A DNA stretch of 64,000 nt from contig NZ_BAAAXV010000009.1 of the NCBI RefSeq assembly GCF_039535785.1, forward strand, positions 1,612,001-1,676,000, given 5' to 3'. The position numbers and the translations under genes are program-made. The notes beneath the pieces were generated by a model that saw nothing but the letters and a program-made list of their open reading frames with translations, searched no databases and was not told the DNA's origin. How positions within the stretch are numbered: position 1 is the first letter of the stretch; the number at the start of each line of letters is the position of its first letter. Source of the DNA: Nonomuraea helvata. Its GTDB lineage: Bacteria > Actinomycetota > Actinomycetes > Streptosporangiales > Streptosporangiaceae. Positions 22,581 to 35,146 of this stretch are shown piece after piece.

Positions 22581-23207
22581 TCACTCCTCCCTCGGCTCGA
22601 TGTCCTTGAGCACCCCGTGAACGACGTAGCGCTGGGCGGCCGAGTATTCGGGGTGGCAGGTGGACAGCGTGATGAAAGCCCGGATGGGCCGGATGTCGGG
22701 CTTGCCGGGCACCGGCGCGAACTCGTCGATCTCGCTGGGATCGACCACGTCGTGCGAGGTCACCCGGTACGTGTAGCGGGCCTCGCGGGCCTCCACGACG
22801 ATCTCGTCGTCGCGTTCGAGCTCGTCGATCTTGTTGAACGGGGCCGCGTACGTGGTGCGGTGCCCCGCCAGCGCGAAGTTTCCGACCTGGCCGGGCATGG
22901 CGCTGCCGGGAAAGTGCCCGGGACCCTTCTTCAGGTCCTCGGTCGCCACGCCCTCGACGACGGCGTACGAGTAGTGAGAGCCAAGTTTGGGGATGCGCAG
23001 CAGAGCGAGGGCCGAGCCCGGCACGGGCTTGTCCGGCCTCTTCGCCCCCGGTCTGTCCTGCTTCGTCACCGCCAGTTCGCGCTGGAGCCGTTCCTGCTCC
23101 CGCCCGGTGTACACACCGGTGCCCCAGAGCAGGTAGGCACAGAACAACATCAGAATCAGGCCCGCGGTGATGCTCGTCTCCCCCATGGCCCGGAGCATGG
23201 TCCGCAT
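22581..23207 (-). CDS. Class E sortase
   Basis: A 208-residue transpeptidase with an N-terminal membrane helix (about 12-32; SITAGLILMLFCAYLLWGTG). The catalytic domain has GNFALAGHRTTYAAPF (catalytic His), FITLSTCHPEYSAAQRYVVH (catalytic Cys, and Arg shortly after) and the class E spacing. Class E sortases anchor LAxTG-type surface proteins or build pili in GC-rich Gram-positives. No pilin gene is next to it. It shares a tight operon with a 52-residue membrane protein and trpG. Confidence 0.9.
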   Translation of the reverse strand: MRTMLRAMGETSITAGLILMLFCAYLLWGTGVYTGREQERLQRELAVTKQDRPGAKRPDKPVPGSALALLRIPKLGSHYSYAVVEGVATEDLKKGPGHFPGSAMPGQVGNFALAGHRTTYAAPFNKIDELERDDEIVVEAREARYTYRVTSHDVVDPSEIDEFAPVPGKPDIRPIRAFITLSTCHPEYSAAQRYVVHGVLKDIEPREE

Positions 23208-25994: not shown

Positions 25995-27071
25995 ATGGCC
26001 CTCTCCCCGTTGGACGACTACCCCGTTCACCAGACCGCCCAGGTCATGCGGCACGTCGCCACCTCCGATCGCAACTTCTACGACCGCTACTACTTCAACT
26101 GCCACCCCGGCACCGACGAGCTCATGCTGATCGTCGGCCTCGGCCAGTACCCCAACCTGGGCGTCACCGACGCCTTCGCCTGCGTACGCCACAGAGACCT
26201 GCACCGCGTCGTACGGGCCTCCCGCGAGCTGGGCCCCGACCGGATGAACACCGAGATCGGCCCGTTCCGCGTCGAGGTGCTCGAAGGGCTCAAACGCCTC
26301 AGGGTGGTCCTGGAGCCGAACGAGCATGGCCTGGCCTTCGACCTCCTCTGGGAGGGCACGATCCCGGCGACCCTGGAGCCGCGGCACTTCCTGCGGTGGC
26401 AGGAGCGGGTCATGTTCGACTCGGTACGGCTGGCGCAGACAGGGCTCTGGTCCGGCAATATCAGGATCGGCGAGGAGGACATACCGGTCACGCCCGACCG
26501 CTGGCAGGGCACCAGGGACCGGTCCTGGGGCATCAGGCCGGTCGGCGAGCCCGAGCCGCCCGGCATCCAGGCCAAGAACCCCGGCACGTTCTACTGGCTC
26601 TACGCGCCCATGCGGTTCGAGGACCACGCCATCCTCTGCATCATCCAGGAGGACGAGCGCGGCCGCCGGGTGCTGGAGGAGGCCGTACGCGTCTGGTCCG
26701 ACGGACGCGAGGAGGAGTACCTCGGCAGGCCGGAGTACCGCCCGGTCTACGCCCCCGGCACCCGCGACGTCGTCGAGGCCACGATCACCTTCTCACCGCC
26801 TGGCGGCAAGCCGTTCGACGTGCGCTGCACTCCCCTCCTGCCGGTGCACCTCATGGTCGGCACCGGCTACGGGCTCGAGCCCGACTGGAAGCACGGGATG
26901 TACCAGGGCGAGGGGCCCGTCGTGCAGGGCGTGACGTACCGGCTGCCCGACGACGCCGCCAGGATGTGGGGCATGGTGGACGCCGTCGGGCGTTTCGAGT
27001 ACGACGGGCTCGTCGGCCACGGGCTCTACGAGTACTGGGCGTTGGGGCCGCACCCGTCCTTTACGGAGTGA
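25995..27071 (+). CDS. Conserved protein of unknown function (358 aa)
   Basis: The ATG at 25995 is preferred because sequence before it is terminator DNA. The 358-residue protein has no signal peptide or membrane helix and is rich in aromatic and charged residues: DRNFYDRYYFNCHPGTDELM, GTRDRSWGIRPVGEPE, GTFYWLYAPMRFEDHAILCI. The layout suggests a beta-rich, lipocalin-like (CrtC/AttH- or DUF7064-type) fold, judged from the RDRSWGxR and W-x-x-x-P pattern. I cannot name a reaction. Its end overlaps that of the convergent secreted-protein gene by 11 nt. Confidence 0.6.
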   Translation: MALSPLDDYPVHQTAQVMRHVATSDRNFYDRYYFNCHPGTDELMLIVGLGQYPNLGVTDAFACVRHRDLHRVVRASRELGPDRMNTEIGPFRVEVLEGLKRLRVVLEPNEHGLAFDLLWEGTIPATLEPRHFLRWQERVMFDSVRLAQTGLWSGNIRIGEEDIPVTPDRWQGTRDRSWGIRPVGEPEPPGIQAKNPGTFYWLYAPMRFEDHAILCIIQEDERGRRVLEEAVRVWSDGREEEYLGRPEYRPVYAPGTRDVVEATITFSPPGGKPFDVRCTPLLPVHLMVGTGYGLEPDWKHGMYQGEGPVVQGVTYRLPDDAARMWGMVDAVGRFEYDGLVGHGLYEYWALGPHPSFTE

Positions 27072-27525
27072 CCTGGTCGGCCTTCTCGCAGATGATCCGC
27101 ACCTTCATGGCGCCCTCGGGCGCGCCGGCCGGCGGCTGCACCTGCGTGAACCCCTCCTCGCCGGGCTCCGCCGGCTGCGCGGGAACGACCTTCACGCCCT
27201 CAGGGAGCTCCCCGTCCGGGAGCTTCTCGACCTTCACGCCGTCCGGGACCTTCTCGACCTCGATCGCGCCCGGCGGCAGAGCCTCGCCGTCGGGAAGGCT
27301 CTCGGTCTTCGCGTAGTCTCTGGTCTCGATCGGCTTCGCCCTGCCACTGCGCGTGGCGAACTTGCCGCCGATCTCGGGCAGGGTGATGGTCTTGCCGTCG
27401 GCCGTCTTGCAGGTCACCTTGGCACCGGGAGCGGCCGGGCTCTCGTCGGCCATGGCGGAGCCGGCAAGGCCGGTGATGGCGAGTACGGCGACCGCGCCGA
27501 GCACCGCGAGACGTCGCTTGAACAT
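27061..27525 (-). CDS. Secreted protein with internal LPDG/PDGV repeats
   Basis: A 154-residue protein with a clear signal peptide (residues 1-26; LAVLGAVAVLAITGLAGSAM then A). The mature part has two Cys (VTCKTADGKTITLP and VRIICEKADQ) that could form a disulfide, and a Pro/Glu-rich middle with repeated LPDGEALPPGAIEVEKVPDG-like units. No known domain is recognised. It is divergent from an OmpR-type response regulator, and direct repeats in the spacer suggest control by that system. It could be the sensed or regulated envelope protein of that system. Confidence 0.65.
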   Translation of the reverse strand: MFKRRLAVLGAVAVLAITGLAGSAMADESPAAPGAKVTCKTADGKTITLPEIGGKFATRSGRAKPIETRDYAKTESLPDGEALPPGAIEVEKVPDGVKVEKLPDGELPEGVKVVPAQPAEPGEEGFTQVQPPAGAPEGAMKVRIICEKADQVTP

Positions 27526-27578
27526 GGATTCTCCTCACTGGGATCAGTCGAACGCCTCGAGCGTGGCGCGGCGTACCT

Positions 27579-27635
27579 TAAAAGATCCTGAAGAGGCCCT
27601 AAATGATCTTCAGGTTGGCTTTAGGTGGCCTGAGG
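27579..27635. promoter_or_regulatory. Three direct repeats at 21-bp spacing, probable response-regulator site
   Basis: TAAAAGATCCTGAAG (27579), TAAATGATCTTCAGG (27600) and TTAGGTGGCCTGAGG (27621) are spaced exactly 21 bp, two helical turns. OmpR/PhoB-family regulators bind such in-phase direct repeats as dimers. The array lies between the secreted-protein gene and the response regulator GTG at 27649. CCTGAAGA/TCTTCAGG also makes an inverted repeat at 27587-27614. Confidence 0.55.
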
Positions 27636-27648
27636 CACGCTGGTCGGT

Positions 27649-28320
27649 GTGCGAGTGCTACTGGTGGAGGACGAGGAGCGGCTGGCCGACCTGGTGAAGG
27701 GCGGTCTGGCGGGCGAGGGCTTCGCGGTGGACGTGGCCCACGACGGGCGCGACGGCCTGTGGATGGCCACCGAGAACACGTACGACGTGATCGTCCTGGA
27801 CGTGATGCTGCCCAGGATGAACGGGTACGCGCTCTGCTCCAGACTGCGCGAGGCCGGCGACTGGACGCCGATCATGATGCTCACGGCCAAGGACGGCATC
27901 TACGACGAGGCCGAGGCGCTCGACAACGGGGCCGACGACTACCTGGCCAAGCCGTTCTCGTACGTGGTGCTGCTGGCCAGGTTACGGGCGCTGGTGCGGC
28001 GGGGCGGGCGGGAGCGGCCCGTCTCGATCACCGTGGGCGACCTGGTCGTCGACCCCGCCGCGCTGAAGTGCCGCAGGGGCGAGGCGGAGATCGCGCTGAC
28101 GCCCAAGGAGTTCGCGGTGCTGCACGCGCTCGCGCGGCGGCCCGGTGAGGTGGTCTCCAAGAGCGAACTGCTGGCCCAGGCCTGGGACTTCTCCTACGAC
28201 GGTGACCCGAACATCGTCGAGGTCTACATCAGCGCCCTGCGGCGCAAGATCGACATGCCCTTCGGGAAAACGACGCTCATGACGGTCCGCGGGGCCGGCT
28301 ACCGGTTGGAGGCGGCGTGA
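27649..28320 (+). CDS. OmpR/PhoB-type response regulator
   Basis: A 223-residue protein from a GTG. The receiver domain (1-118) has the acidic pocket VEDEER, phosphoacceptor Asp in VIVLDVMLPRMNG, MLTAKDG and KPF. The winged-helix effector domain (about 125-222) shows LTPKEFAVLHALARRPGEVV, then SKSELL, and NIVEVYISALRRKI. It overlaps the sensor kinase start by 4 nt, so the two form one operon. The direct repeats immediately upstream are probably its own binding sites. Confidence 0.9.
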   Translation: MRVLLVEDEERLADLVKGGLAGEGFAVDVAHDGRDGLWMATENTYDVIVLDVMLPRMNGYALCSRLREAGDWTPIMMLTAKDGIYDEAEALDNGADDYLAKPFSYVVLLARLRALVRRGGRERPVSITVGDLVVDPAALKCRRGEAEIALTPKEFAVLHALARRPGEVVSKSELLAQAWDFSYDGDPNIVEVYISALRRKIDMPFGKTTLMTVRGAGYRLEAA

Positions 28321-29621
28321 AGCTGGTGGCCGTGCTCTCCTCAGTGCGCTTGAAGGCGACCGTCGCCGCCACCCTGGTGGTCGCCCTCGCCCTGGGCCTG
28401 GCGGCCCTCGCGCTGGTGGCCGTCCTGCGCAGCACGCTGGAGCGCAACGCCGATGCCGAGGCGTCCAGGAAGGCCGTGGCCGCGGCGCCGTACGCGGAGA
28501 CCATGGAGATCAAACGCACCACCGCGGGAGAGTCCGGGCCGATCCAGATCGCGAAGACGGGCGGCGTGATCCAGCTGAGCGACGGCGCGGCGGCCAACTT
28601 CGTCGACCCCGACGTGCTGCTGACCGTCGACAAGGCGGCCTCGACCGCCGATTGGGCGGAGCCGCAGAAGTACGCCGTCGCCGGACTCAAGGTGAGCACC
28701 GCGACCGGGCCCGCCACGGTCTGGACGCGGGTCTCCCTGGACGGCGCCGAGGAGGCGCTGCGGACGCTGTACGGCGCGCTGCTGCCCGGCGTGCCAGCCG
28801 TGCTGCTCGTGGTGGCCGGGATGACCTGGATCTCGGTCGGTCGCGCGCTCGCCCCCGTGGCCGCCATCAGGGCCAAGGTGGCCGACATCACTGCCCGCGA
28901 CCTGCACCAGCGGGTGCCCGTGCCTGGCTCGAAGGACGAAATTGCCGGGCTGGCCACGACCGTGAACGGCACCCTCGACCGCCTGGAGACAGCGGTGGAG
29001 ACGCACAAGCGCTTCGTCGCGGACGCGGCGCACGAGCTGCGCAGCCCCATCGCCACCCTGCGCGCCCGCCTGGAGCTGGCCGCGCCCAGTGAGCTCACCC
29101 GGGAGGCGCTGGCCGACGTCGAACGCCTGCAGTCCCTGGCCGCCGACCTGCTCATCCTGGCCAAGCTGGACGCCGGCGAGCCGCTGCGCACGGCCGAGCT
29201 GGACCTGGGCCAGGTGGCCGCCGAGGAGTCCCTGCGGGCCCGGCGCCGCCCCGACGTGCGGGTGGAGCTGGACATCGAGCCGGACGTCGTGATGAACGGC
29301 TCGCGCGCCCATCTCGACCGCCTGGTGACGAATCTGGCCGACAACGCGGTACGGCACGCCGCCTCGACCGTGCGGGTACGCGTACGCGCCGAGGAGGGGC
29401 AGGCCGTGCTGGAGGTGCAGGACGACGGGCCCGGGATCCCGCCCGAGCAGCGGGAGGCGGTGTTCGCCCGCTTCACCAGGCTCGACGAGGCGCGGGCCAG
29501 GGACGCGGGCGGCGCCGGGCTCGGGCTGCCGATCGCGCGGGACATCGCCCTGCTGCACGAGGGCACGCTGGAGTACGCAAATTCCGGATTCGTCGCGAAA
29601 TTTCCCCTGAAAGTGACATGA
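28317..29621 (+). CDS. Sensor histidine kinase
   Basis: A 434-residue membrane kinase. Two helices (about 12-37 and 150-172) flank an external sensor of about 115 residues; a HAMP-like linker (VGRALAPVAAIRAKVADITA) follows. The H-box is RFVADAAHELRSPIATLRAR, the N-box NLADNAVRHA, and G boxes DDGPGIPPEQR and GAGLGLPIARDI. It phosphorylates the response regulator encoded 4 nt upstream. The signal is unknown; genes for a Rieske protein and a secreted protein beside it hint at an envelope or redox cue. Confidence 0.9.
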   Translation: MKLVAVLSSVRLKATVAATLVVALALGLAALALVAVLRSTLERNADAEASRKAVAAAPYAETMEIKRTTAGESGPIQIAKTGGVIQLSDGAAANFVDPDVLLTVDKAASTADWAEPQKYAVAGLKVSTATGPATVWTRVSLDGAEEALRTLYGALLPGVPAVLLVVAGMTWISVGRALAPVAAIRAKVADITARDLHQRVPVPGSKDEIAGLATTVNGTLDRLETAVETHKRFVADAAHELRSPIATLRARLELAAPSELTREALADVERLQSLAADLLILAKLDAGEPLRTAELDLGQVAAEESLRARRRPDVRVELDIEPDVVMNGSRAHLDRLVTNLADNAVRHAASTVRVRVRAEEGQAVLEVQDDGPGIPPEQREAVFARFTRLDEARARDAGGAGLGLPIARDIALLHEGTLEYANSGFVAKFPLKVT

Positions 29622-29667
29622 ACCGGTTGATGATCCGGAAACGTGTGAATGGTTGAAGGAGGCAACC

Positions 29668-30051
29668 ATGCTCACACGCCGTGCACTGATCACCCGAGGG
29701 AGCGCCGTGGGCGCAGGAGTCGTGTTCCTGTGGCCGCGTCCCGCGGAGGCGGAGGCCGAGGCGGCGAAGCCCGTCCTCGCCACGACGAAGAGCATCCCGC
29801 TCGGGGGCGGGAAGATCGTCAAAGGCAAGTACGTGATCACCCACCCCAAGAAGGGCGTCTACAAGTGTTTCAGCGCCATCTGCACCCACCAGGGCTGCAC
29901 GGTGGCGAGCGTCAGCAAGGGCACGATCAACTGCCCGTGCCACGGCAGCAGGTTCAGCGCGACGACCGGCAAGGTCGTGAACGGCCCCGCCAAGCGGCCG
30001 CTCGCCGCCAAGAAGATCAAGATCTCGAAGGGGGCGATCAGGCTCGCTTGA
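29668..30051 (+). CDS. Rieske [2Fe-2S] domain protein, exported
   Basis: A 127-residue protein. The ATG at 29668 follows GAAGGAGG. The N-terminus is LTRRALITRGSAVGAGVVFL with an Arg pair, then WPRPAEAEAEA, suggesting Tat- or Sec-type export. The Rieske cluster ligands are CTHQGC (Cys, His) and CPCHGSRFS (Cys, His), with the two outer Cys able to form the stabilising disulfide. Length is that of small Rieske proteins with a signal but no other domain. It lies 46 nt after the sensor kinase gene, so it may be in the same transcript. The electron partner is unknown. Confidence 0.85.
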   Translation: MLTRRALITRGSAVGAGVVFLWPRPAEAEAEAAKPVLATTKSIPLGGGKIVKGKYVITHPKKGVYKCFSAICTHQGCTVASVSKGTINCPCHGSRFSATTGKVVNGPAKRPLAAKKIKISKGAIRLA

Positions 30052-30674
30052 TCCGCAGGGCGTAGGTCGTGCTGCGCCTGGCGATCTCGAAGCCCGCACG
30101 GGAGTACACCCGGACGGCTCCCGTGGGGTTGTGGGCGTCGACGCCGAGCCCGGTGCTCTCGTACCCCTGATCTTTGAACGCGGCAAGGGCGTGCCCGATC
30201 AGCGCGCTCGCCACGCCCTTGCCGCGCCACTCCTTCAACGTGGCGATGATCTGGATCCACGCCTGTCGCTCGGCCCGCGCCTCGGGCGCCGTCGTCCAGC
30301 TCGGGCGACCAGGTGGCGATGGACACGCCGTCCGGCGACCCGGGCGCGGGCAGGTCGCCCATCAGGCTCCGTTCCATGCGGGCGAACGAGCGCACGGGGG
30401 CGAACCCGGCCTGCTCCACCAGCGCGGTGAGACCCGGCTGACCGTCGTGGACGTCGAGCTGGAGCTCCAGAGGGACGCCGGGGTAAGCCTTCTCGCTCAC
30501 CCCCGGCGCCGTCCGGACGCACCAGTCGATGACGTGCCTGCCGAGCCCTTGCCCGCGGTGGGCCGGGTGCACGCCGCCCGTGATGTGCATCATGTGAACG
30601 CCGTCGGCGGACTGCCTGACCGGGAGACAGCCGAAGGCTGCGATCCGATCGCCCTCCCGGGTCAGGGGTCCCAT
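30038..30674 (-). pseudogene. Two-domain GNAT acetyltransferase, internally deleted and frameshifted
   Basis: From an ATG at 30674 the frame encodes a GNAT half with GGVHPAHRGQGLGRHVIDWC (acetyl-CoA loop) and then starts a second domain (ERSLMGDLPAPGSPDGVSIA). Near 30285 the sense is lost; a different frame resumes with AWIQIIATLKEWRGKGVASA then LIGHALAAFKDQGY, the acetyl-CoA loop of the second domain, ending at 30038. About 80 residues of the second domain are missing, so one deletion explains both gap and shift. The end overlaps the Rieske gene by 14 nt (convergent). It could also be a sequencing error. Confidence 0.65.
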
Positions 30675-30689
30675 TGCATGATCGGCAGC

Positions 30690-31025
30690 CTAGGCGAGCC
30701 TGGTGGCGCACCCCAACTGTGTTCCGATGTGGGCCAGACCTTCGGCGAACCCCCGGCGCGTGCGCTCGCGGAACCCGATGAAGAGCCGGTTGCCCAGGGC
30801 GACGGCCCAGTGGTTGCCCGCCACGTTGTAGACGCGGTGGACCAGGCGCGTGCCCTCGGGGTCGGCGGTGACCGACCATTCTCCGCGGTACCACCAGCCG
30901 CCCTGGTAGGCCAGGCTGTGCTCGCCCAGCTCCGTGCTCGGGACGCGCTGTACGAGCACCGGCCACACCTCCTCGACCGGGGCCGCGATCACTCCGGCGA
31001 CCTCGGTGATGAGCCGCCTGCTCAT
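30690..31025 (-). CDS. SRPBCC (START-like) family protein
   Basis: A 111-residue protein starting at an ATG that overlaps the stop of the upstream NTF2-like gene (ATGA). The start SRRLITEVAGVIAAPVEEVW is the usual first strand and helix of SRPBCC proteins, followed by YRGEWSVTADPEGTRLVHRV; the C-terminal helix is short. These bind hydrophobic small molecules in a cavity; the ligand here is unknown. The coupling suggests joint function with the SgcJ-like neighbour. Confidence 0.7.
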   Translation of the reverse strand: MSRRLITEVAGVIAAPVEEVWPVLVQRVPSTELGEHSLAYQGGWWYRGEWSVTADPEGTRLVHRVYNVAGNHWAVALGNRLFIGFRERTRRGFAEGLAHIGTQLGCATRLA

Positions 31026-32950: not shown

Positions 32951-33382
32951 ATGGCATATGACTTCCAGGTCGTGATCGACACGAGCGACCCTCACCGGCT
33001 GGCGGACTGGTGGGCCGACGCGCTCGGTTGGAAGGTGGAGCCCCAGGACGAGGCGTTCATCCGCGGGATGATCGAGAAGGGCTACGCCACCGACGATGAC
33101 ACGACCCGCCACAACGGCGCGCTGGTCTGGAAGTCCGGCACGGCCATCAGGCATCCCGACGGCCTCGAGCGCGCGCCGCGCGTGCTGTTCCAGCTCGTGC
33201 CCGAGCCCAAGACGGTCAAGAACCGCGTGCACCTCGACATCCGGGTGGGCGCCGACAACATCGACCCCGTGGTCGAGCGGCTCACCGCCAAGGGCGCGAC
33301 CGTGCTGCACCGCGGCCGCCAGGGGCCCAACTGGTGGGTGACCATCGCCGACCCCGAGGGCAACGAGCTCTGCATCACCTGA
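32951..33382 (+). CDS. VOC-family (glyoxalase/dioxygenase fold) protein
   Basis: A 143-residue protein with two beta-alpha-beta-beta-beta modules: YDFQVVIDTSDPHRLADWWA then DALGW at the start and VHLDIRVGADNIDPVVERLT plus ADPEGNELCIT at the end. ADPEGNExC is the common C-terminal motif of VOC proteins. Metal-ligand identity is uncertain. It may be a resistance or small-molecule-binding protein. It overlaps the convergent response-regulator gene by 8 nt at the 3' end. Confidence 0.8.
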   Translation: MAYDFQVVIDTSDPHRLADWWADALGWKVEPQDEAFIRGMIEKGYATDDDTTRHNGALVWKSGTAIRHPDGLERAPRVLFQLVPEPKTVKNRVHLDIRVGADNIDPVVERLTAKGATVLHRGRQGPNWWVTIADPEGNELCIT

Positions 33383-34013
33383 GGTAGGCCAGCACCGCCA
33401 GGACCCTCCTGTGCCCGTCGGACTCGGGCGGCAGGTCGAGCTTGGCGAAGATGTTCGCGATGTGCTTGGCCACGGCCGCCTCGGTGACGAACAGCTCCTT
33501 GGCGATCGACGCGTTCGTCCGCCCCTCGGCGATCAGGCCGAGCACCTGCTGTTCGCGCGGGGTGAGCCTGGCCAGCGGGTCGCGCCGCCGCCTCAGGAGC
33601 TGGCGGACCACCTCCGGGTCCACCACCGTGCCGCCGGCGGCCACCCGGTCGAGCGCCTCCACGAACTCGCGCACGTCGCCTATGCGGTCTTTCAGCAGGT
33701 AGCCGATGCCGGCGCCGGCGCCGGACTCCAGCAGCTCGGCCGCGTACGTCTGCTCGACGTACTGGCTGAGCACCAGCACGGCCAGCTCCGGGTGGCGTTC
33801 GCGCAGCTCCAGCGCGGCCCGCAGCCCCTCGTCGGAGAAGCCGGGCGGCATCCGCACGTCGGTCACCACGGCGTCGGGGCGGTGCTCGGCGACGGCGGCG
33901 AGCAGGGCGGGCGCGTCACCGACCGAGGCGGCCACGGTGTGGCCGAACCGTTCGAGCAGGCCGACCAGGCCCTCCCGCAGCAGTACGGCGTCCTCCGCGA
34001 TCACTACGCGCAC
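33375..34013 (-). CDS. NarL/LuxR-type response regulator
   Basis: A 212-residue protein starting at a GTG (34013) that overlaps the kinase stop by 10 nt. The receiver domain has VIAEDAVLLREGL, phosphoacceptor Asp in AVVTDVRMPPG, and VLSQYVEQTYA; the C-terminal helix-turn-helix reads LTPREQQVLGLIAEGRTNAS then IAKELFVTEAAVAKHIANIF. The longer open frame further upstream is a shadow of the kinase gene. It pairs with the histidine kinase upstream. Confidence 0.88.
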   Translation of the reverse strand: MRVVIAEDAVLLREGLVGLLERFGHTVAASVGDAPALLAAVAEHRPDAVVTDVRMPPGFSDEGLRAALELRERHPELAVLVLSQYVEQTYAAELLESGAGAGIGYLLKDRIGDVREFVEALDRVAAGGTVVDPEVVRQLLRRRRDPLARLTPREQQVLGLIAEGRTNASIAKELFVTEAAVAKHIANIFAKLDLPPESDGHRRVLAVLAYLR

Positions 34014-35146
34014 GGGATCTCCACTCGTATCAACGTCGGCCCTCCGACCGGGCTGGACAGGGACAGTCTCCCGCCCACCACGGCCAGCCGGTCGGCCAGG
34101 CCGGTCAGCCCCGTCCCCTTGGCCGGGTCGGCGCCGCCCGTGCCGTCGTCGCGCACCTCGACGACCAGCGTGCCGCGCTCCACCCGCGCCGTGACGGCGC
34201 CGCTGGTGGCCCGGCTGTGCTTGGCCAGGTTCGCCAGCGCCTCGCTGACCACGTAGTACGCGGTGACCTCCACGGGCGCGGGCAACCGGCCGTCGAGCTC
34301 GACGGCCACATCCACGGGTACGGGCGAGCGCCCCGCCACGTCGCGGACCGCCGCGCCCAGCCCGCGGTCGGTGAGCACCTGCGAATGCACGCCTCTGATC
34401 AGCTCGCGCAGCTCGGCCAGCGCCTGCTTGGCCTCGTCGTGGGCGCGCTCGATCAGCCGGCCCGTGGGAGAGTCGTCCGGCAGGTCCAGCCTGGCCAGGC
34501 CGAGCGTCATCGACAGGGAGACCAGCCGCTGCTGCGCGCCGTCGTGCAGGTCCCGCTCGATCCTGCGGCGCTCCACCTCGAACGCGTCCACCAGCCGCGC
34601 CCGTGACCGCAGCACCTCGCTCAGCTCGGCTCCCTGCGGCGCGAGCATCGCCCGTACCATCACGCCTCGCGCGCCGCCCCAGGCGGTGATCGTGTACGCG
34701 GCGACGGGCAGCAGCAGCACGCCGCCCACCGAGGCCACGACGGCGACCGAGTCGGCCAGCGGCTGCACGACCGGCGAGAGGATCAGGATCACCGGCCCGC
34801 CGACCGTGAACGCCAGCATGATCAGGTCGATCCACCACAGCGCGAGCACCGTGAAGACGGCCAGCCCCGCCTCCCGCCGACGCCTGTCCGGCACCTCGGG
34901 CAGCGGAACGCCGTCGACGAGGCGCAGCCTCCGCCGCTCGAACCAGGCGACGAAGGGGAGGCTCAGCGCCAGCACGACCGGCGCCCCGACCCAGCCCAGC
35001 GGGATCGTCGCGAACGCCGCGACCCCGACGGCCACGCCCGGAACGGCACTGGCCAGCAGGTACGCCGCGGAGCGCCAGGGCCAGGCCGAGCCCAGGAAGG
35101 GCAGCGGCCGCCGCGTGAGCGCCTCCAGCGCGGTCCGGTTGAGCAC
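34004..35146 (-). CDS. NarL-type (HisKA_3) sensor histidine kinase
   Basis: A 380-residue kinase with four to five membrane helices in the first 170 residues and little external sequence. The HisKA_3 motif is VERRRIERDLHDGAQQRLVS; the ATPase part has ALANLAKHSRATSGAVTARV, VRDDGTGGA and GLTGLADRLAVVGG. Such kinases (DesK/LiaS-like) often sense membrane or wall stress through the helices. It forms an overlapping operon with its response regulator. Confidence 0.88.
   Translation of the reverse strand: MLNRTALEALTRRPLPFLGSAWPWRSAAYLLASAVPGVAVGVAAFATIPLGWVGAPVVLALSLPFVAWFERRRLRLVDGVPLPEVPDRRRREAGLAVFTVLALWWIDLIMLAFTVGGPVILILSPVVQPLADSVAVVASVGGVLLLPVAAYTITAWGGARGVMVRAMLAPQGAELSEVLRSRARLVDAFEVERRRIERDLHDGAQQRLVSLSMTLGLARLDLPDDSPTGRLIERAHDEAKQALAELRELIRGVHSQVLTDRGLGAAVRDVAGRSPVPVDVAVELDGRLPAPVEVTAYYVVSEALANLAKHSRATSGAVTARVERGTLVVEVRDDGTGGADPAKGTGLTGLADRLAVVGGRLSLSSPVGGPTLIRVEIPCA

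Follow-up and report, generated by a model that had tools for sequence, protein, structure and literature searches.

The intergenic region at positions 27526–27648 of the window (the whole 64,000-nt stretch of Nonomuraea helvata DNA analyzed here) very likely serves an OmpR/PhoB-family two-component system as a control region acting in both directions; the response regulator (RR) would activate both its own gene and a divergent gene encoding a small secreted protein. The best reading of the system is a positively autoregulating OmpR-family pair that switches on a very small envelope regulon. As a bidirectional promoter it is of a known kind and under strong constraint, and it belongs to a little-studied two-component system; the type of switch is ordinary, and what is new is the tiny regulon marked out by the promoter modules. 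The analysis yields base-by-base predictions for two operators, two −10 elements, a probable leaderless start, and the whole regulon of a system that is conserved across a family of antibiotic-producing actinobacteria. The features discussed are as follows.

27061–27525, minus strand: divergent secreted protein, 154 aa, with a signal peptide, cysteines at residues 39 and 146, and no Pfam family
27526–27648: intergenic region between the secreted-protein and RR genes, the predicted control region
27560–27565, minus strand: −10 element CACGCT of the secreted-protein promoter, 10 nt past the second half-site
27576–27592, minus strand: putative secreted-side operator, TTCAGG (27592–27587)-N5-TTAAGG (27581–27576); plus-strand hexamers CCTTAA and CCTGAA
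27598–27603, minus strand: central hexamer CCTAAA, read as TTTAGG on the minus strand and keeping the 11-bp register of both modules
27609–27625, plus strand: putative RR-side operator, TTCAGG (27609–27614)-N5-TTTAGG (27620–27625); as 7-mers, CTTCAGG-N4-CTTTAGG
27636–27641, plus strand: −10 element CACGCT of the RR promoter, 10 nt past the second half-site, with the RR start codon 7 nt on
27649–28320, plus strand: OmpR/PhoB-family RR, 223 aa, predicted phospho-acceptor Asp51
28317–29621, plus strand: sensor histidine kinase, 434 aa, HAMP-HisKA-HATPase_c, phospho-acceptor His239; overlaps the RR stop codon
29668–30051, plus strand: Rieske [2Fe-2S] protein, downstream of the kinase in the same orientation

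Two divergent promoter modules upstream of the RR and secreted-protein genes

The RR consists of a receiver domain (PF00072, 4e-27) and a Trans_reg_C winged helix (PF00486, 1.9e-24), and the closest named relatives of the kinase all belong to Nonomuraea. Against the heavy-metal families, the RR scored 229 bits with TIGR01387 (CusR/CopR regulators), below the curated cut-off of 279, and the kinase scored 171 with TIGR01386, below the cut-off of 293.

The conserved register of the intergenic region is 11 bp: five hexamers, each exactly 11 bp from its neighbor, extend from 27576 to 27625. Read on the minus strand, the first three are TTAAGG, TTCAGG, and TTTAGG; the last two belong to the plus strand, and a perfect dyad about 27600.5 is formed by the outer four. 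The region contains TTCAGG-N5-TTWAGG-N10-CACGCT twice, back to back and once per strand, with a half-site period of 11 bp (a 7-bp repeat plus a 4-bp spacer) and with CACGCT following the second half-site after exactly 10 nt on both strands. The consensus of these two identical divergent copies is TTCAG(G)-N5-TTYAG(G)-N10-SANNNT. The secreted-side operator, which is TTCAGG-N5-TTCAGG in most relatives, is degenerate in the window genome, where its second half-site is TTAAGG (E 2e-4). The central CCTAAA is a possible extra half-site; it is less conserved, being CCGAAA or CTGAAG in relatives and deleted or displaced in three loci (L216–L218).

Since the right module ends 7 nt before the GTG codon at 27649, leaving no room for a leader, the RR mRNA is probably leaderless and started at this codon. 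Between the left module and the ATG of the secreted protein lies a normal leader that includes a ribosome-binding site. A conserved TTGGCT on the plus side may act as a weak −35 element at 15-bp spacing and hence allow basal transcription, and nothing comparable was found as a −35 element at the left promoter. A generic sigma-70 and terminator scan returned no matches, as expected for GC-rich −10 elements, and an Rfam search of 27000–30700 detected no RNA family.

Specificity of the modules and their association with the RR

The strict pattern TTYAGG-N5-TTWAGG had exactly two matches in the 11.26-Mb genome, both at this locus and on opposite strands, compared with about 0.5 expected from base composition and about 2e-7 for two facing copies within 40 bp. 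A sequence-only module model likewise recovered the two modules in the window genome at E 2.7e-7 and 2e-4, with the next match at 0.38. A wider regulon in this genome was considered and rejected: allowing one mismatch gave 22 matches against 26 for a reversed-pattern control, showing no excess, and the promoter context of the model's third-best matches (L248 and L249; E 0.38 and 1.3) was unconvincing. As judged by these scans, the direct regulon of the RR in the window genome appears to consist of these two promoters alone.

We then compared the distribution of the 49-bp composite, allowing up to one mismatch, with that of RR orthologs detected at E ≤ 1e-90. The composite was found in 80 of 343 family genomes, and its reversed-pattern control in 0. 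All 80 composite-bearing genomes carried an RR ortholog, and none of the 231 RR-less genomes carried the composite (Fisher p 2.5e-52); within the genus, it was present in 46/47 RR-positive and 0/8 RR-negative genomes (p 7e-9). Binding of the site by a different regulator of the same taxonomic distribution is unlikely, given the position of the site. One genome (G318) has a second copy of the element on contig C7 (L195), immediately 5′ of a stretch that encodes the beginning of a regulator-like gene whose best alignment matches the RR only over its last quarter; this copy probably stems from a duplication of the system that has since decayed or been rearranged.

Conservation of the modules across loci

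The alignment sample comprised 23 genus loci and 40 further family and genus loci, 62 of which aligned gap-free on the plus-side module. In base counts from the 61 best of these 62, the plus-side TTCAG was invariant (61/61). The A at position 2 and the T at position 6 of the plus-side −10 element were each present in 61/61, and the corresponding bases on the minus side in 61/61 and 60/61. The bases between this A and T varied much more, on the minus side freely, as one would expect of bacterial −10 elements. The RR start codon lay 38–40 nt past the first half-site in every aligned locus, with N5 and N10 fixed.

The initial annotation had proposed that loss of the repeats in close relatives keeping the genes would speak against a regulatory role. 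We therefore read the modules in the 20 RR-positive loci lacking an exact composite, and a strong RR-side module (score > 21) was still present in 18 of them; the top chance score in the 64-kb window was 2.3. In five loci (L214–L218), both modules were intact and the gap between them was 9, 45, or 67 bp instead of 16. This variation in inter-module distance, with internal spacing kept, indicates that the modules are independent and that their overall phasing is unconstrained. A single palindromic operator was accordingly ruled out, its halves being 9 to 67 bp apart in relatives with both halves intact. L213 and L222 have lost the left module, and the search recovered no divergent secreted gene at either locus; this absence is indicative only, since the same search also missed the gene in L214, L215, L219, and L231.

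Module copies elsewhere in the genomes of relatives

The model learned from the cis sites found sites away from the locus in 10 relatives. Four of these trans sites lay upstream of a second two-cysteine secreted protein (L243–L246, L250–L267) with a conserved C-terminal HLTCVW, which is encoded in 18/55 genus genomes and absent from the window's genome. The module was located 31–45 nt upstream of the aligned start in all 18 genus copies, and the RR was present in each of the 18 genomes; the restriction of this protein to RR-positive genomes was weakly significant (p 0.03). A fifth trans site was found upstream of a lipoprotein (CMKGKGFTY...CLKGKGY; L247, L268–L273) whose family also supplies the divergently encoded protein of L173 and L191. 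The module was present at 6/6 close orthologs of this lipoprotein, and 23 of 24 distant paralogs were without it, the one with a module being L277. Three distant lipoprotein paralogs are encoded in the window's genome at G000:C9:2334541–2337081. In our view, the return of the same protein families by a blind scan with the cis-learned motif is the strongest evidence suggesting that the module defines a regulon.

Proposed mechanism and alternative readings

In PhoB-type activation, a regulator site ends 10 bp upstream of the −10 element at a promoter with no −35 element, and the regulator replaces the −35 element and recruits sigma. From sequence comparison, we infer binding by this RR, an activating and not a repressing effect, and a requirement for phosphorylation. 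Upon activation, two phosphorylated RR molecules would bind each half-site pair as a tandem dimer, the right-facing pair being CTTCAGG-N4-CTTTAGG and the left-facing pair CTTCAGG-N4-TTTAAGG. With a GC-rich −10 element (CACGCT) located 10 bp beyond each pair, the bound RR would replace the −35 element as PhoB-type activators do. The right promoter would raise RR and kinase levels, probably via a leaderless mRNA, resulting in positive autoregulation. The left promoter would make a small secreted protein predicted to carry a disordered, variable linker between its two cysteines. The module copies found in relatives would also drive the second two-cysteine secreted protein and the lipoprotein encoded elsewhere.

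Repression is the main rival to activation. The RR might occupy both half-site pairs and block both promoters until a signal arrives, giving negative autoregulation, and the half-sites do abut the core promoters while the conserved plus-side TTGGCT could be a weak −35 element. However, the half-sites overlap neither the −10 element nor the start, a conserved −35 element is missing from the left promoter, and the half-sites end exactly 10 nt upstream of the −10 element on both strands as well as in trans, the position from which an activator replaces the −35 element. Since a site 10 bp upstream of a −10 element without a −35 element favors activation in both directions, we consider the repressor reading improbable. 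The hexamers might instead be promoter elements of an alternative sigma factor and not an RR site, which would also account for how strongly they are conserved and for their constant distance from the −10 element. This is the least probable of the readings considered, because the tandem hexamers lie 10 and 21 nt upstream of the −10 element, neither spacing fitting a −35 element; in addition, the −10 element keeps the ordinary A2/T6 signature, and there is one composite locus per genome, always beside this RR gene.

The initial annotation had instead read the region as a single multi-site operator of three in-phase 21-bp direct repeats, two helical turns apart, governing an envelope/redox regulon that includes the Rieske gene. 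The three 15-mers, TAAAAGATCCTGAAG (27579–27593), TAAATGATCTTCAGG (27600–27614), and TTAGGTGGCCTGAGG (27621–27635), are present as described at exact 21-bp spacing, with 13 nt between the third and the RR GTG codon at 27649. Their mutual identity is weak to modest (11, 7, and 8 of 15; sum 26/45). Among 2000 mononucleotide shuffles, 1 attained this sum at period 21, and 25 did when any helical period was allowed, which places the repeats above nearly all shuffles. The 21-bp register was not conserved, however, averaging 19.3/45 across 62 loci including the window's own compared with 26 here, and the conserved period is 11 bp with strand inversion. The actual sites are two opposed pairs with half-sites 11 bp apart, and the distance between the two halves shifts by −7, +29, and +51 bp in relatives. 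Regarding the redox element, 12 of 17 named Nonomuraea loci have a Rieske gene about 40–100 nt downstream of the kinase gene, as do scattered loci from two other genera; most other loci lack it downstream, and it is thus accessory. This operator model is therefore very improbable. The comparative evidence nonetheless favors three elements of the initial annotation: a regulator site between the secreted-protein gene and the two-component system, autoregulation, and membership of the divergent secreted protein in the regulon. Its place and general function were correct, with the repeat architecture misread and the redox part overstated.

Comparison with known systems

Regulators of the OmpR/PhoB family bind direct repeats as tandem dimers, and Mycobacterium tuberculosis PhoP requires 7-bp motifs with a strict 4-bp spacer (PMC4832192). 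The sites described here share with the PhoP (M. tuberculosis, Streptomyces) and PhoB pho boxes the 7-bp direct repeats, 4-bp spacer, and 11-bp period (PMC4832192); the regulator is likewise composed of a receiver and a winged helix, and extra tandem repeats can add monomers. In contrast, the half-site here is CTTCAGG/CTTTAGG instead of GTTCACC or CTGTCAT, the two pairs face away from each other, and the regulon appears to comprise one locus in place of dozens.

MprAB of Corynebacterium and mycobacteria is also an actinobacterial OmpR-type, envelope-tied system, and C. glutamicum MprA, with the site TKTTAAGAAM, is reported to be positively autoregulated (PMC12113857). The two sites have a common TTAAG/TTCAG core, a similarity that serves as a lead and not as evidence of membership; the published motif is a loose 10-mer, whereas two strict 7-mers are found here. 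No sigE/htrA-type targets were seen at these sites, and the strict model gave no second target in the window genome. CutRS of Streptomyces is another actinobacterial OmpR-type system linked to secreted and envelope functions. The CutR site is TAWATAAA, and none was found at the cutRS promoter (PMC12802291). In our alignment, TAWATAAA was not found among the conserved columns; the conserved site consists of CTTYAGG repeats and, unlike that of CutR, is probably autoregulatory.

The divergent secreted protein and neighboring genes

The secreted protein of the window has exactly two cysteines, which bracket a low-complexity linker rich in Ala, Pro, Val, Gly, and Glu. A Pfam scan assigned it to no family at E ≤ 0.001 and gave nothing credible at E ≤ 1; specifically, no PepSY domain was found at either threshold. 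Across relatives, the divergent slot is nearly always occupied by a signal-peptide protein of 120–240 aa. Exactly two cysteines were found outside the signal-peptide region in 54/54 sequences scored, a set that left out atypical or incomplete entries. One cysteine follows soon after the signal-peptide region and the other is 3–21 residues from the C-terminus, with an intervening linker rich in the same five residues and having almost no Trp or Tyr. An AlphaFold2 model of the secreted protein, run with 16 sequences, had a mean pLDDT of 44 and contained only a signal helix and a short hairpin, consistent with a disordered protein.

This hypervariable two-cysteine family occupies loci L001–L023 and L173–L212, except that the slot of L173 and L191 holds an unrelated lipoprotein. 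In a subgroup (L179, L223–L225, and L227), the protein has six cysteines and contains repeats. L232, one of the two most distant cases, encodes an RR 65% identical to that of the window and has the same layout of a secreted protein divergent from the regulator and kinase, but its slot protein appears PepSY-like by eye and has no cysteine, in contrast to the two-cysteine, low-complexity protein without a Pfam family found here.

The median pairwise identity was 12% for the mature secreted protein, compared with 85% for the RR and 65% for the kinase core; the extracytoplasmic sensor domain of the kinase was also highly variable across the family (18%). The promoter modules have thus exposed a hypervariable family of two-cysteine secreted proteins that is absent from Pfam and far less conserved than its promoter, and the dedicated regulator makes the function of these proteins testable. 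It is rather unlikely, though conceivable, that the two-cysteine protein is more than an output and acts as the feedback partner of the kinase, a secreted, disordered protein closed by a disulfide that reports the cell-surface state to the hypervariable sensor domain, with the RR dedicated to making it; if true, this arrangement would represent a new kind of three-part envelope sensor in Streptosporangiaceae. Coevolution of the secreted protein and the sensor domain looked strong by a linear partial Mantel correlation (0.59) and was rejected as a saturation artifact: with rank and quadratic control for RR and kinase-core distances, the correlation was 0.09 (39/500 permutations), and within the genus it was 0.07.

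Elsewhere in the window, a class E sortase encoded at 22581–23207 on the minus strand scored above its NCBIfam cut-off, and a second two-component pair, of the NarL/LiaS type, is encoded at 33375–35146 on the minus strand, with the sensor kinase at 34004–35146 and a LuxR-type regulator downstream.
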